A stretch of DNA of 49,704 bases from Gemmatimonadota bacterium. Its GTDB lineage: Bacteria; Latescibacterota; UBA2968. The notes beneath the pieces are model-generated. The model was not told the DNA's origin. It made no database searches and worked only from the letters and a program-made list of their open reading frames with translations. The position numbers were made by a program, and so were the translations under genes. The stretch covers positions 1 through 49,704 of the forward strand of contig JAPOXY010000073.1 in NCBI GenBank assembly GCA_026706845.1, read 5' to 3'. Shown here piece after piece: positions 6,211 through 12,178 of the stretch; within the stretch, counting starts at the first letter, position 1; every line of letters begins with the position of its first letter.

Positions 6211-7584
6211 CTAACGGGTTGCTCTGTTAATGCCTTTGATTTTTTGATTTGCTTTGGCGCGCTGGTCGATTTCTTCGGGTATGACGATGTTGTGGAGGTC
6301 GGCGCGGAGGTCGGAGAGGATGTCGGCACAGGTGGGGTCGTCAGCGCGATTTTCGGTTTCGTCGGGGTCGTTGGCGACGTTGAATAACTGGTCTGGCAGG
6401 CCTACGTAGTGGATGTATTTCCAATCGCCTTTTTTGATCATGAAGCCGCCAGTTAGCGCACCGAGGGCGTGGTATTCGCTAAAGATGGGGCGGTCGGGAA
6501 AGGGATGTCCGAGGATGGCGGGGAGGAGGCTGCTGCCGGGCAATGGCGCGGGGTCCTGTTCGGCGAGATCGAGTAGGGTGGGTAGGATGTCGATGAGGTT
6601 AGCTCCTGCGGAGATGCGCTGGTTGCCTGCAGCGTTTGGGTGGCGAATGATCATGGGGACGCGCACGGCGTGTTCGTAGAAACATTGTTTTTGCCATATA
6701 CCGTGGTGTCCGCCCATTTCGCCGTGGTCGCTGACGTAGATGACGACGGTGTTGTCGCGCAGGGATGAGTTATCGACTATGTCGAGCAGGCGGCCGATGA
6801 GGTGGTCGGTGAAAGAGATGAGGCCGTAGTAAGCAGCGGTTGCAGTGGTGGAGATGGTGTCGGGCAGGGGTTCTTCGTTGCGCAGCCAGTAGCGGAGTTG
6901 CTGGATGGAAGGGTGCTGGGTTTCGCAAGGTTCGGTTCTCGTGTGTGGCAAGATGACGCGGTCGGGGTAGTAGCGGTCGAAGTATTCCCGTGGGCACAGG
7001 AGTGGGAAGTGGGGGTTTATGAAGCCGGTGTATAGGAGAAAGGGACGGTCGGCGTATTGCGCGCGGGATTTGAGGAAGCGTTCGGAGAGGTCGGTAGCGG
7101 TGCTGTCGTAGTCGGTTTGCCAGTTTTCGTCGGGGCCGCATTCGGTGACGTGGCTGTTGCTGCCGCGCCGGGCGTCGGGTGTGCGCGCGGGGGCACCCAT
7201 ACTCCAGTGTTTCCATTTTTCGGCGTCGTCCATGAGGCGCACGCCAAAGCCGTGCAGGCGTTCGGGACCTATGAAATGGGTGCGGCCGCAGGCTGCGGTT
7301 TCGTAGCCCGCGGCTTCGAGGTAGCTGCCCATTGTGGGGATTGTTCCCGCGAGGGGTGAGCCGTTGTCCCAGGTGCCGATCTGGTGGACGTATTGTCCGG
7401 TCATAAAGGACATGCGCGCCGGTACGCATATCGGGCAGGCAGTATAGGCATTGTCAAAGGTGGTGCCTTCGGATGCGAGGCGATCCATGTGTGGTGTTTC
7501 GATATGGGGGTGACCGTAACAGCCGGTGACTGCGGGGTCGTGTTCGTCGCTCATGATGAGCAAGATGTTGGGTCGCTGGTTCAT
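6211..7584 (-). CDS. Sulfatase (CxPxR type)
   Basis: 457 aa. Residues 5-15 (PNILLIMSDEH) give the N-terminal metal-binding Asp. CVPAR at 53-57 carries the formylglycine Cys53. SDHGEMGGHHG near residue 290 gives further metal and active-site residues. No signal peptide is seen, so a cytoplasmic site is expected. Last gene of a minus-strand set (isomerase, two sulfatases, D-glutamate-cyclase-like gene, this sulfatase). Its ribosome binding site AGGAAG lies inside a leftover copy of another sulfatase's 3' end (7588-7633). Its stop is 11 bases from that of the convergent acylase gene, with no terminator between. The motif DQ/DEH and the tail TENRADDP resemble choline-sulfatase/iduronate-sulfatase-like members, but the substrate is undecided. 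Confidence 0.9.
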   Translation of the reverse strand: MNQRPNILLIMSDEHDPAVTGCYGHPHIETPHMDRLASEGTTFDNAYTACPICVPARMSFMTGQYVHQIGTWDNGSPLAGTIPTMGSYLEAAGYETAACGRTHFIGPERLHGFGVRLMDDAEKWKHWSMGAPARTPDARRGSNSHVTECGPDENWQTDYDSTATDLSERFLKSRAQYADRPFLLYTGFINPHFPLLCPREYFDRYYPDRVILPHTRTEPCETQHPSIQQLRYWLRNEEPLPDTISTTATAAYYGLISFTDHLIGRLLDIVDNSSLRDNTVVIYVSDHGEMGGHHGIWQKQCFYEHAVRVPMIIRHPNAAGNQRISAGANLIDILPTLLDLAEQDPAPLPGSSLLPAILGHPFPDRPIFSEYHALGALTGGFMIKKGDWKYIHYVGLPDQLFNVANDPDETENRADDPTCADILSDLRADLHNIVIPEEIDQRAKANQKIKGINRATR

Positions 7585-7587
7585 GCG

Positions 7588-7633
7588 AATATCTTCCTAT
7601 GCGTTTGGGACCGGGATCGGCGGATACAACGGT
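7588..7633 (-). repeat. 46-bp direct repeat, copy A: remnant of a sulfatase 3' end
   Basis: 43 of 46 bases match 8434-8479, the last codons and stop region of the sulfatase at 8432-9862. Read on the minus strand it still encodes SADPGPKRIGRY, but the stop is lost and no gene precedes it. The two copies bracket the D-glutamate-cyclase-like gene and share the same orientation. Confidence 0.9.
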
Positions 7634-7641
7634 ATCTCAGG

Positions 7642-8409
7642 TCAGGCCTGGTACAGGCTCTCTGTCGGGATGTCGGTGATCATTGCGTGGCCAGGGGTGT
7701 AGGATATCATGAATGGGAGCCTGGCCTGTTCGGCGACAATGCGGGGTGTGATGCCGCAAGCCCAATACAAGCGGTCCGTTCCTTCGGGTACTTCAAACGG
7801 GTGACCGTTCATATCGACGTTTATCTTTTCGATGCCGAGTTTGTCCGCATTATTTTTTCCGATTGGGGCGCCGTGACACGCGGGAAAGTGGCTGGTGAAT
7901 TCCCATACATGGTCGATCACGGTCGGGTCGAATGAACGGATGGTGACGGCCATGTTGCCCGAGAAGGGCCCGACTGTTTTGCACGGGAGCGACGTGAGTT
8001 GGATGGTCGGTCCAAATGCGGCGGGGTAGCCTTTTTCGGTCAGGAGGCCATCGAAGGAGACGCTCGATCCGATCAGGAAGGTAACGGTTCGGTCGTCGAA
8101 CAGGTCCACGATGTCCTGTCGGCGTTCGGTGACTACGCCATCGCGTACGATGTCGTATGAACCCAGGTCGGTTCGGATGTCGAGGGCGCGTGCATACTCG
8201 GGGCAGTCTGTTTGGCCGGGTTCCATTTTTGCAATCAGCGGGCAGGGTTTCGGGTTGGCGCGACAGAATGCCTCGAAATCGTCGGCGTAGTCTATGTCCA
8301 GAAAGGCGACGTTGACGCACAGGTAACCGGGAAGGGCTCGGGATGCAAAACCTTTGAGTTCGTTGGCCCTGCAAGCGAGTCTGACGTCTAACGGTGTTTT
8401 GAATTTCAT
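7642..8409 (-). CDS. D-glutamate cyclase-like / putative hydro-lyase (DUF1445, YcsI family)
   Basis: 255 aa, near the usual 260-270. Recognisable by the C-terminal signature pattern YWACGITP followed by YTPGHAMITDI (about residues 217-247), close to the CxWxxGVTP and HAPGHMxVTD motifs of the family, and by an N-terminal cyclase half with FLIGSSVSFDGLL. The family was assigned to D-glutamate/5-oxo-D-proline metabolism from its mitochondrial homologue; bacterial members are mostly called hydro-lyases of unknown substrate. ATG follows GGAG by 8 bases. The gene sits between two sulfatases and is bracketed by the 46-bp direct repeats, so it looks like a cassette inserted at the end of the upstream sulfatase. 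Its link to sulfated substrates is unknown. Confidence 0.75.
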   Translation of the reverse strand: MKFKTPLDVRLACRANELKGFASRALPGYLCVNVAFLDIDYADDFEAFCRANPKPCPLIAKMEPGQTDCPEYARALDIRTDLGSYDIVRDGVVTERRQDIVDLFDDRTVTFLIGSSVSFDGLLTEKGYPAAFGPTIQLTSLPCKTVGPFSGNMAVTIRSFDPTVIDHVWEFTSHFPACHGAPIGKNNADKLGIEKINVDMNGHPFEVPEGTDRLYWACGITPRIVAEQARLPFMISYTPGHAMITDIPTESLYQA

Positions 8410-8431
8410 GTTGTGCTCTCCATTGAAACGC

Positions 8432-9862
8432 TTAATATCTTCCTATGCGTTTGGGGCCGGGATCGGCGCATATAACGGTGTGGTCGAAGTTTTGTTTTAT
8501 GAGCTGGTATTTCAGATCTGTGTGGGATGGGTCTTCCCAGAGGTTGTGAAATTCATCGGGGTCTTCTCGTAGATCGTAGAGTTCGCCATAGTCTTCGTTG
8601 TGATAGACGACGAGTTTGTAGCGGTTGTTGCGCAACATGGTCGCCCAACAGGGGTTGTGTTTTTCAGAGGCGTGTGGGGCGAATTTATCGACGACATCGT
8701 AGTATTCACAGCGCACAAATTCGTGGTGCGCGTGCCCGGAATCTTCGCCCGTGAGAATGGGGATGAGGGATTTGCCGTGTGTCCATTCGAGGGGGATGTC
8801 GGCGAGGTCGGCAAGGGTGGGCGCAATGTCTAAGAGCGCGGTGAGGCCATCTGCGCGGTGGCCCTGGAGAAAGGTGCCGGGCCACGAGATGATGAGGGGG
8901 ACCCGTACGAGGGCTTCGTAGAAGCGGCAACCTTTGCCGGTGAGGCCGTGATCGCCGAGCATTTCGCCATGGTCACTCGTGAAGATGACGACGGTGTTTT
9001 CGCGCTGTCTCGTGCGCTCAAGTGCATTGAGCATGCGACCGACGTTTTCGTCGATGAGGGCGATCATGCCGTAGTAGGACGCTTTGTTGTGCTGTTCGCG
9101 GTCGCCGGGTGGGTTGCCTTTTTGTCCTGCGAAAAAGCGTTTGAGTTGCGTTTGTGTTTGCAGGTCGCTTTCGCGAAATAGCGGCGGTGGCAGGTCGGCG
9201 GGATTGTATTTGTGTGTGTCGGGTGCGTCAAAAGGTCCGTGCGGGTCAAAGGGGTTGACGCTCATGAGCCAGGGTCCGTCATGGGGGGATTCGATAAATT
9301 CAATGGCGCGGTCCGCACACCAGGTGGTCTGGTGGTGTTGGGGGTTCATGTCGGGACGATAGGTGCCGTATGTGCCGTCTTTTTTTGTTTGAAAGACGTC
9401 GCCGAGGTCTATGCCCTGTTCGGTGAGCCAGTCGGTGTACTGGTTGCCAATTCCGATGCCTTGATTGTGTGAGTGGCTGTACCAGAATTTGCGATATCCG
9501 TCGTCAACGCGTTGTTCTTCGCCGTTCCAGGCAGAGGCGAGGTGGAGTTTTCCCGATAAGCCGCAATCGTATCCGGCATCTGCGAGGCGTTTGGTGATGA
9601 GTTGTACGCGTTCATTTGCCGGGAAATAGGCATTGCCATTGCGATTGCCGTGTACGGTGCTGGGATATAGCCCGGTGAGAAAGCTGGAACGACTGGGCGT
9701 GCATATCGCGCTCTGGCAGTGGGCATGTGTGAATGCTACGCCTTCGGCGCAGAGGCGGTCGAGGTTGGGTGTCTGGATGTGTTCATTGCCGAGGGCGTGG
9801 ATGGTATCATAGCGTTGTTGGTCGGTGCAGATCCAGAGGATGTTGGGGCGTTTTGGTGTCAA
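8432..9862 (-). CDS. Sulfatase (CxPxR type)
   Basis: 476 aa from a TTG at 9862 preceded by GAGGAG seven bases away; a TTG at 9877 is possible but would leave no room for that site. The N-terminus PNILWICTDQQR holds the metal Asp. CTPSR at about 54-58 carries the formylglycine Cys, and SDHGEMLGDHG near residue 290 matches the conserved metal site. No signal peptide. The C-terminus ends ADPGPKRIGRY; this tail is duplicated as a remnant at 7588-7633. The gene follows the sulfatase ending at 9874 by 11 bases, so the two are very likely co-transcribed. The DQQR-type N-terminus is close to choline-sulfatase and heparan-type families; the substrate is unproven. Confidence 0.9.
   Translation of the reverse strand: MTPKRPNILWICTDQQRYDTIHALGNEHIQTPNLDRLCAEGVAFTHAHCQSAICTPSRSSFLTGLYPSTVHGNRNGNAYFPANERVQLITKRLADAGYDCGLSGKLHLASAWNGEEQRVDDGYRKFWYSHSHNQGIGIGNQYTDWLTEQGIDLGDVFQTKKDGTYGTYRPDMNPQHHQTTWCADRAIEFIESPHDGPWLMSVNPFDPHGPFDAPDTHKYNPADLPPPLFRESDLQTQTQLKRFFAGQKGNPPGDREQHNKASYYGMIALIDENVGRMLNALERTRQRENTVVIFTSDHGEMLGDHGLTGKGCRFYEALVRVPLIISWPGTFLQGHRADGLTALLDIAPTLADLADIPLEWTHGKSLIPILTGEDSGHAHHEFVRCEYYDVVDKFAPHASEKHNPCWATMLRNNRYKLVVYHNEDYGELYDLREDPDEFHNLWEDPSHTDLKYQLIKQNFDHTVICADPGPKRIGRY
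8434..8479 (-). repeat. 46-bp direct repeat, copy B (end of the sulfatase gene)
   Basis: Last codons of the sulfatase at 8432-9862. Matches 7588-7633 at 43 of 46 positions; similarity ends abruptly on the far side of both copies. Confidence 0.9.
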
Positions 9863-9873
9863 TGGAGGTCTCC

Positions 9874-11295
9874 TCAATCGCGCGCGCCTCTGATAACGCG
9901 GCCGTTTTCGATCCAGTGATCGCGGTAAAAGGTAGTGGGTTCAAAGGTGTCGTTTAGTGCGTCCATGCGCGTCCGAATCTGGTCGCGGTAGTGCTGGATT
10001 GTTCTAGCATGGTCAGGGCTGTTGGCGAGGTTGTGCAATTGCAGAGGGTCTTCGCGGTGATTGTAGAGGGATTCTCGATGTTTTTCAATGGCATAGGTAT
10101 ATTGTTTGTCGCGCAAGGCACGCCATTCAAAGCCATCGTCCCAATCGACACTGGGACCCATGCCCTGTAAGAATGCGGATTCGGGTTCATCTCCATGCTG
10201 ACCAAATGCGCAATGCGAAAGGTCAAATCCATCGATACCATCGGGGATATCGACGTTCAGGAGTGAGAGCAACGTGGGCATGATATCGGGTGTGTTGAGG
10301 CAGGCATCGCTTTCGGTTTTGGGGGCGATGCGGTTGGGCCAGCGCATGAGAAAGGGGACGCGCGCGGCTTCTTCATAGTAGATGTTTTTCTGAACGCGAC
10401 CGTGTGCGCCAAACATTTCGCCGTGGTCTGATGTGAAGACGACGAGGGTGTCGTGCGCGAGGTTGAATCTGTCTAACGCGTCTAAAATTCGGCCCACGTT
10501 CCAGTCGAGGTTGGCAGTCATAGCGGCATAGATTCGCTGCCATTCAACGAGGTTGGGTTTGACGGATTTCATCCACCAATCGCGGTCGAACCATGCGTGC
10601 CAGTATTCTCCTGATCCGTCCCGGTAATTTGGCGGCAGGTCAAAGGCCATGTCTTTGAAGTGCATACCCCATTCTTCGGGGACGTTGTCCCAGTTCCAGG
10701 GCTGATGAGGTGTGCCATAAGAGACGAAGAGGGCGAAGGGTTCTGGATTTTCGCGCGCGTTTTCGAGATAGGAGATGGCGAGGTCGGTCATGGCATCGGG
10801 TTCATAGGCAGGGATGTCGATGCGTTCAAATTTGTCTTCGTAATAAAATCCCTTGTAATAGCTGTGGTTGAAGTTGTAGGCCGCCCAATAGTGGTCAAAT
10901 CCCAGTCGGTGCGGGCCTGGGGGCACGAATTGATTGGCGGGATTCTTGTGAAAATCTCCGGCCTGTTTATAAACTTTGCCTTCGGTTGCGTAAATGTGCC
11001 ATTTGCCGATGTAGGCACAATTCACGCCGTTCTGCGTCAATGTGCCGGCAAGCGTTGGCAAATCGGTGCGGGCACTCAATTCGTTCATGACGTAGCCATT
11101 GGTGGTGGGATAACAGCCCGTAAAGAGGGATGCGCGATGCGGGCTGCACACGGGATAGACCGAGGTGGCGTTGACAAAGCTGATGCCTTCAGATGATAGG
11201 TGGTCGATATTGGGGGTGTGGGCGCGGTTGTCGCCCATATAGCCACAGGATTGCGGGCGGAGTTGATCGGCGAAGATGTAGAGAAGGTTAGACAC
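9874..11295 (-). CDS. Sulfatase (CxPxR type)
   Basis: 473 aa starting with GTG three bases after the stop of the isomerase gene; no strong Shine-Dalgarno, so coupled translation is likely. Conserved N-terminal strand NLLYIFADQLR, then CSPHR at 50-54 with the formylglycine Cys50. SDHGEMFGAHG near residue 285 gives the second metal-site half. The C-terminal part has the usual sulfatase tail NHREDPLQLHNLA. No signal peptide. Second gene of the minus-strand sulfatase set. Length and motifs fit the arylsulfatase/choline-sulfatase-like branch; the true substrate is unknown. Confidence 0.9.
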   Translation of the reverse strand: MSNLLYIFADQLRPQSCGYMGDNRAHTPNIDHLSSEGISFVNATSVYPVCSPHRASLFTGCYPTTNGYVMNELSARTDLPTLAGTLTQNGVNCAYIGKWHIYATEGKVYKQAGDFHKNPANQFVPPGPHRLGFDHYWAAYNFNHSYYKGFYYEDKFERIDIPAYEPDAMTDLAISYLENARENPEPFALFVSYGTPHQPWNWDNVPEEWGMHFKDMAFDLPPNYRDGSGEYWHAWFDRDWWMKSVKPNLVEWQRIYAAMTANLDWNVGRILDALDRFNLAHDTLVVFTSDHGEMFGAHGRVQKNIYYEEAARVPFLMRWPNRIAPKTESDACLNTPDIMPTLLSLLNVDIPDGIDGFDLSHCAFGQHGDEPESAFLQGMGPSVDWDDGFEWRALRDKQYTYAIEKHRESLYNHREDPLQLHNLANSPDHARTIQHYRDQIRTRMDALNDTFEPTTFYRDHWIENGRVIRGARD

Positions 11296-11298
11296 GGA

Positions 11299-12135
11299 TT
11301 ACGCGCTTTCGTGTTCTGCTCGCATTGCGTTAAAGAAGCGCACATCAATGCGCGCCAGGTCAATTACGGTTTCTATGGGTTCACCGCTGTATTCACTGTG
11401 GAAACTCACGGGGCCTTCAAAGTTTAATCGATCCAGTGTTTTTACGACTGCGGGCCAATCGCCAAATCCCTGTCCCAGCCGCATTGTTCCACCCGTGGGC
11501 GCCCCCTGTACAGTGCGTCCCAGAGGTCGCTGGCGAATCAGGTCTTTAAATGCCAGGACTGATAGGTACTCGCGCACGATATCCAGTGCCATTTCTATGG
11601 GTTCGCCACATATCGACAGGTGTCCCGGGTCGGAGAATACGCCGATGTGTTCGGGGTTGAATCCCCTGACCACGTTCATGACGGCACACGAATTTAACCC
11701 CATCGATTTGCCCGAATGGTTGTGTACCACGGTTTTGACGCCGTGTTTTTCCGACAATTTCTCAAAGCTTTCCATCCAGCCCCGGATTTCATCCAGTTGG
11801 TCCCAGTAGTGCTTAGCATCTGACCAGTGCCAGTAGCCCAGTTTTACATGCGCTACGCCGGCTTCGCCCAGCGCGCCGTAATAACGCTCGGCGTAATCTA
11901 TGTCCGGACGGCTAAAATCGCCGGGGGCTGTTACGAGTGGAATGCACAGGCCCGCGGCTTCAAACTGTTTGGCGGCTTCGGGTAGAGCCTTATCGATATT
12001 GTCTGGATTTACAGGATATCCCTCTCGCACACACAAATCCGCGCCTTGCACGCCTACCGATTGGAGGGATTCTATGATTTCGGGTATGTCCAGGCCTTCG
12101 AGGTGTTTTGTGAACATGATGTACGTGAGCTTCAT
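11299..12135 (-). CDS. Sugar phosphate isomerase/epimerase (xylose isomerase-like TIM barrel)
   Basis: 278 aa from the ATG at 12135, chosen over an ATG 30 bases upstream because GAAAGGAA lies just before it. AP-endonuclease-2/xylose-isomerase-like barrel with metal-ligand candidates in VVHNHSG (about 150), FSDPGHL (about 185) and SFHSEYSG near the C-terminus. Such proteins interconvert keto- and aldo-sugars or inositols. First gene of the minus-strand sulfatase set: the next sulfatase starts 3 bases after its stop. It has a plausible promoter at 12179-12207 and is divergent from the RND pump. The substrate cannot be stated. Confidence 0.85.
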   Translation of the reverse strand: MKLTYIMFTKHLEGLDIPEIIESLQSVGVQGADLCVREGYPVNPDNIDKALPEAAKQFEAAGLCIPLVTAPGDFSRPDIDYAERYYGALGEAGVAHVKLGYWHWSDAKHYWDQLDEIRGWMESFEKLSEKHGVKTVVHNHSGKSMGLNSCAVMNVVRGFNPEHIGVFSDPGHLSICGEPIEMALDIVREYLSVLAFKDLIRQRPLGRTVQGAPTGGTMRLGQGFGDWPAVVKTLDRLNFEGPVSFHSEYSGEPIETVIDLARIDVRFFNAMRAEHESA

Positions 12136-12178
12136 TTTTTTTCCTTTCTCTGGTGTCGTTTGCATTTATGAGCACTTC

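Follow-up and report, generated by a model that had tools for sequence, protein, structure and literature searches.

Genomic islands and integrases can use the 3′ ends of genes as attachment sites. The gene end is then duplicated and regenerated and the cargo comes to lie between direct repeats, as at the locus described here; unlike in those systems, no integrase was found at this locus, there is no constant core and the anchor genes vary. A second group of related events is insertion–duplication and homology-facilitated illegitimate recombination. Integration of circularised linear DNA by a single crossover and homology-facilitated illegitimate recombination are both documented in bacteria (PMC3240628), and they resemble the present case in that homology is one-sided, the homologous stretch is copied beside the insert and the empty site is regained when the two copies recombine. 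Those systems are laboratory crosses with plasmids or marker DNA, whereas the event here would be a natural and old one. Merodiploids made by transformation in Streptococcus pneumoniae (PMC3784515) likewise lead from DNA uptake to tandem duplications with new joints through ordinary homologous recombination, but those duplications span from tens of kb to ~1 Mb and arise through pairing with repeats in the chromosome. In the literature on duplication with random loss the best matches are mitochondrial, and the bacterial form is SNAP (PMC7055797). As at our locus, SNAP leaves relics of lost copies between functional genes, changes gene order and fixes the new order. It was framed for tens to hundreds of genes, however, whereas here the relics are of ~100 bp and the gene between them is an acquired one.

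The entry and exit of single genes in operons without transposons have mostly been inferred from end states. At the locus analysed here, one genus presents the junction both empty and filled, the filled form with two copies of the target, along with graded decay and a probable reversal. Each of these processes is known in principle, and there is a small chance that a lineage-specific route exists; the unusual features are how complete the record is at this one locus and how densely scars occur in the genus.

The repeat and its neighbouring genes

The window, by which we mean the whole stretch of 49,704 nt that was analysed, belongs to genome G000 (contig C73) and contains a sulfatase cluster on the reverse strand. 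The names sulA, sulB and sulC are used as local labels only. First in the cluster is a xylose-isomerase-like TIM-barrel gene (11299..12165), followed by the third sulfatase of the cluster, sulC (9874..11295), the upstream sulfatase sulA (8432..9862) and the downstream sulfatase sulB (6211..7584). All four are open reading frames with the corresponding Pfam matches, and sulA and sulB are intact. Between sulA and sulB lies one intact open reading frame of 255 aa (7642..8409) that matches the Pfam family D-Glu_cyclase (PF07286), with GGAGAG (8416..8421) as its likely ribosome-binding site.

A preliminary description of this DNA had reported a single D-glutamate-cyclase-like gene at this position, flanked by two direct-repeat copies that match at 43 of 46 positions. 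Both statements were confirmed, the repeat copies lying at 7588-7633 and 8434-8479. This repeat is the only self-match of more than 90% identity within the window; the other two self-matches at E <= 1e-4 are paralogous sulfatases aligned with each other at ~69%. With ~1e-13 matches of 43/46 expected in the whole window under an equal-base model, a chance match was rejected. Also rejected was the possibility that the two copies are functional parts of two different genes, as the right copy has no gene upstream of it and is deleted differently in each group of relatives. Our reading agreed with the preliminary one on the content of the right-hand remnant as well: it still encodes ADPGPKRIGRY, it lacks an upstream gene and it carries AGGAAGA (7592..7598) just upstream of the sulB ATG (7582-7584), where the motif would serve as the ribosome-binding site of sulB.

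The 46-mer proved to be the best-kept part of a longer duplication of ~105 bp, the left side of which also includes the start of sulB. The left copy of the target comprises the last ~93 nt of sulA (8432-8524, an extent taken from the alignment of the right-hand relics), and within it lies the left copy of the 46-mer (8434..8479). It is followed on the reverse strand by AGCG (8429..8432), the last trace in the window of the duplicated sulB start, which reads TTAGCACGAGCCAGCG in G010; the probability of a 10/12 match to the sulB start at that exact place is 3.8e-5. The right copy (7588..7641) is a decayed sulA tail, consisting of CTGAGATACC and the 46-mer, that now forms the leader of sulB.

Filled and empty junctions in the genus

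The junction was compared in 11 genomes of one genus within “Ca. Latescibacterota”, most of them metagenome assemblies, from bacteria whose hosts we take to be sponges on our reading of the source projects. The cyclase-family gene is present in nine of the 11 genomes and absent from G005 and G008. In G005 there is no cyclase: sulA runs directly into sulB (...GAACGCATAGGAAGATATTAGCATGAACCAGCG...) and the 46-mer occurs once. Three contigs of G010 overlap identically over ~55 nt. From sulA, on contig C64, one path leads to the cyclase gene and sulB (C115), and the other goes directly to a second sulB allele (C188). The latter is an empty allele, with one copy and no cyclase, and the two states are probably strain variants. 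G008 lacks sulA and sulC as well and is uninformative on the junction. In the outgroup G013, which belongs to another genus of the family, residues 366-476 of sulA lead directly into sulB with no cyclase between them; the rest of the cluster is split over contigs, and the cyclase-family gene of this genome lies on a different contig, where it adjoins the orthologue of the TIM-barrel gene. The two alleles of G010 differ downstream too, as C188 (L104) continues with ABC-permease-like and epimerase-like genes and not with the penicillin-amidase gene.

The preliminary description had proposed that insertion predicts relatives with one 46-mer and no cyclase gene, and that duplication and loss predicts relatives where a complete sulfatase occupies the position of the remnant. 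The former were found in G005, in the empty allele of G010 and, as regards gene order, in the outgroup; the latter did not turn up in any of the 11 congeners. The contigs of G010 break at the repeat, as an assembly artefact might make them do. The inserted state is nevertheless present in nine genomes, one of which is a single-contig assembly of 6.5 Mb, and with the expectation of ~1e-13 given above we attach next to no weight to artefact or chance resemblance.

The anatomy of the scar was established by aligning filled alleles to empty ones. The left copy extends past the stop codon of sulA into the start of sulB (TTAGCATGAACCAGCG), indicating that the target was the joined sulA–sulB junction. 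Before the cyclase leader, this sulB-start relic reads GATATTAGCACGAGCCAGCG in G010, GATATTAGCACGAGTCAGCG in G009, TATTAACACGAGCCAGCG in G002 and G003 and TATTAACACAAGTCAGCG in G004; G007 keeps TTAGCATGAA, and in the window and the two genomes closest to it only AGCG is left. The sulA tail on the right side, given above for the window, is represented in G010 by a piece matching sulA 1339-1372, in G002 and G004 by a stretch from AAATATCAACTCATAAA to ACACCGTTATA, and in G007 and G009 by almost only GGGAGATATGAGC. When the alleles are combined, ~93 nt of sulA and ~12 nt of sulB can be placed on both sides of the cyclase gene. Both sides carry the same target, a sulA tail with a sulB start on the left and a sulA tail with sulB on the right.

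The right copies were deleted differently in each group, and the last ~15 nt before the sulB ATG were kept in all nine filled alleles; AGGAAGA falls within this stretch, the only part of the right copy that all nine keep. Unequal decay of the copies is expected if the left one must finish sulA and the right one need only start sulB.

The left copy of G007 (L099, G007:C1:1973000-1982000) also contains a MITE-like element of 179 bp, situated between the end of sulA and the cyclase gene. Its terminal inverted repeats are GTGATGTGTGACTT, and it is flanked by a duplicated 10-bp target, TTAGCATGAA; four near-full copies (95–100%), the one in the left copy included, occur in the 800 kb of G007 that were searched.

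Proposed routes of entry, age and probable loss

We favour insertion of the cyclase gene into a pre-existing, tight sulA–sulB junction with duplication of ~105 bp, made up of ~93 nt from the end of sulA and ~12 nt from the start of sulB. Including the route outlined here, we give this reading a probability of roughly 60%. Empty junctions, duplication on both sides and unequal decay of the right copy are directly visible in the alleles, and insertion with target duplication is supported; the recombination route is a reconstruction. Every variant considered duplicates the anchor and leaves both of its neighbours whole. A piece of DNA with a sulA tail and the cyclase gene would have entered the cell. 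It would have been circularised, or have formed an illegitimate joint at its other end, and a single crossover in the sulA tail would have joined it to the chromosome, presumably with no dedicated recombinase taking part. Both neighbouring genes would stay intact, a direct repeat would be left behind, and recombination between the copies could later excise the gene precisely, which is the best explanation of G005. In favour of a single crossover are a parallel at the dxs locus of G007 and the donor-like order of dxs and insert in G008, both described below. Among 64 genomes of the phylum, and in a pattern scan of genome contigs, no donor haplotype had the cyclase gene immediately after sulA, and a search for the source of the ~26 nt to the right of the cyclase gene gave nothing above chance.

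The sulB relic on the left requires either a donor in which sulB was cut at its start or a one-step event. In the latter case the gene would have been inserted during break repair, by fill-in of a staggered break or by a template switch to foreign DNA with replication resuming ~105 bp behind. Such an event would produce the two-sided duplication, sulB start included, all at once and needs no special donor. No source of the insert was found, however, from which microhomology at the joints could be read, nor any direct sign of such repair in these bacteria; we regard this as a distinctly improbable origin.

The main rival is duplication followed by loss of the SNAP type. A segment with the cyclase gene, sulA and sulB would have been duplicated, with sulB then lost from the first copy save its first ~12 nt and sulA lost from the second copy save its tail, leaving the cyclase gene between them. 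This published process (PMC7055797) predicts exactly the order seen, sulA – sulB start – cyclase – sulA tail – sulB, and the creatininase locus of G007 illustrates it clearly within the genus. The relics of the sulB start and the sulA tail adjoin kept genes, as it would have them, though insertion expects the same relics. In G013, moreover, the cyclase-family gene lies beside the TIM-barrel gene, which in the genus of the window belongs to the sulfatase cluster. Against this, neither the ancestral order nor a full second sulfatase was seen in any genome; the complete ancestral order, cargo included, was not found in one cluster in any of 64 genomes of the phylum, its parts in G013 being on different contigs. 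Searches for a cyclase relic or second copy ahead of the cluster, for remains of other genes to the right of the cyclase and for relics of further duplicated genes gave nothing above chance. The cyclase of the genus is, in addition, not the closest relative of that of G013. We consider duplication and loss a possible but rather unlikely origin of the arrangement.

As regards the age of the favoured insertion, the cyclase tree and the flanking-gene trees recover the same supported groups (G007 with G009; G000, G001, G006 and G010 together), and details of the left junction are common to the members of each group. Because the trees agree, the data fit one insertion before the radiation of these species, followed by vertical descent.

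G005 is nested in the cyclase-bearing group as sister to G004 (support 99/100 with sulB and the amidase gene, 82/84 with the upstream region). Derived bases in the sulA end are common to G002, G003 and G004 (ATTATATG, CAGCGCATCGGAAGGTATTAA), and G005 lacks seven of them. Its sulA end reads GTTATATGCGCCGATCCCGG...GAACGCATAGGAAGATATTAG, close to the right copies, and just upstream of that end it has the AACTCACAAAACAAAATTTCGACC of the G002–G004 group. This looks like a later, precise loss of the cyclase gene through recombination between the left and right copies, leaving a chimaera. The seven diagnostic bases are also compatible with retention of the ancestral empty state in G005 and spread of the cyclase allele among the others, a less economical history.

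Similar scars and the cyclase-family gene

A scan for low-copy direct-repeat pairs (36–400 bp, 0.3–10 kb apart) was made in a non-random sample of regions. It gave 55 pairs in 800 kb of the sister genome G007, where one of the two regions scanned holds most of them, 15 pairs in 400 kb of G037, seven in G008 and one in 400 kb of Escherichia coli K-12. Pairs in which one member is the end or start of an intact gene and the other a fragment numbered 10 in G007 and one in G037; there were none in G008 or E. coli. Three scar loci, at the dxs, PhyH and creatininase genes, were compared across the genus.

At the dxs locus of G007 (L159 8700-10900), dxs is followed by a gene of 289 aa, a fragment of a DUF433/DUF5615-type pair, a 57-bp dxs tail and gene Y, and the right-hand joint lies at a GAAGC microhomology. 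The site is empty in six genomes (G002, G003, G004, G005, G006 and G009), where dxs adjoins Y with exactly one copy of the 57-bp stretch. In G008, dxs is followed by a relative of the 289-aa gene, which is the order expected of a donor. In the 289-aa gene itself (L159 9303-10172) a short coding repeat (...LTEAQARTEKRMEE...) recurs several times in tandem; the gene has no Pfam match.

The end of the PhyH gene is an insertion hotspot with stacked cargos (L161 3354-5700 in G007, L215 in G002, L217 in G009, L216 in G010 and L218 in G001). The cargo differs by species, being a DUF433/DUF5615 pair, another of ~3 kb in G009 and one of ~8 kb in G002, and the cargos are separated by PhyH tails of 41–220 bp, of which G002 has two.

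The third locus has the order X–Y–WD40 gene–W in G003 (L233) and G006 (L232), where X is the creatininase gene. In G007 (L139 7246-12660) the order is X–WD40 gene–two fragments of X–Y–W, a clear case of duplication with reciprocal loss. It matches SNAP and is bioinformatic evidence of the sort that, according to the authors of that proposal, was still needed (PMC7055797).

These loci bear on the suggestion in the preliminary description that a one-gene cassette had been inserted at a gene end with that end regenerated. The comparison supports insertion with a duplicated target but gives no such backing to a dedicated cassette, since no recombinase was found among the flanking genes, the duplication is ~105 bp long and spans both genes where a short constant core would be expected, and comparable scars have other cargos and anchors, at least one of them (creatininase, G007) having arisen by duplication with reciprocal loss. 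A site-specific cassette or integrative element with the sulA end as its attachment site would account for the regenerated gene end, the cargo between direct repeats, the seemingly possible precise loss and the stacking of several cargos between tail copies at the PhyH locus. Pfam testing of the flanking genes, however, revealed no recombinase in the element or next to it, although one acting in trans is conceivable. The anchors vary (sulfatase, dxs, PhyH, creatininase), as do the lengths (41 to 220 bp) and sequences of the tail copies between loci, with no common core seen, and no gene-tail repeats surround the cyclase gene at 11 loci of genomes from other genera. Such an element is a very improbable source of the scar.

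A broader proposal would be that gene addition at gene ends is frequent in the genus without any mobile element, leaving anchor-tail copies of 40–220 bp, allowing stacking and precise loss, and acting as a main source of operon turnover in the lineage. The contrast in repeat pairs between G007 and E. coli K-12 prompts this proposal, which we hold to be improbable. The genus offers a natural series in which the rates, joints and repeat lengths of such events could be measured.

The inserted protein is by profile score a member of the D-Glu_cyclase family (PF07286; 97.9 bits against a cut-off of 25). Its score with the NCBIfam model NF003969, a putative hydro-lyase equivalog, was 213.3 bits, below the cut-off of 324, and its solved relatives 3db9 and 2pif are both named UPF0317. 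Among nine species the dN/dS of the gene is 0.10, indicating that it is maintained.

The cyclase of the genus shares 83% identity with its counterpart in G012 and 81% with those of two genomes from another family, but only 77% and 72% with those of G013 and G014. The dxs protein has the opposite order, with 77% and 80% identity to G013 and G014 and 69% to G012. The cyclase tree places the genus together with G011, G012 and those two genomes from another family (support 99/98). The contrast between the two proteins and the grouping in the tree make horizontal transfer likely, and the gene was probably acquired in this way in an ancestor of these species. Neither the 64 genomes of the phylum nor the pattern scan of genome contigs yielded a donor closer than 83%.

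In G012, inverted repeats of ~35 nt of the CCTCTGCGTCCTCTGCG type bracket the cyclase gene (L011 1455-1489 and 2274-2308), a kind of repeat different from the gene-tail repeats. The same genome has a truncated C-terminal part of a sulfatase related to sulA (L117 9696-10523), ~4 kb downstream of its cyclase gene, and this part overlaps a dehydrogenase-like open reading frame in the opposite direction.
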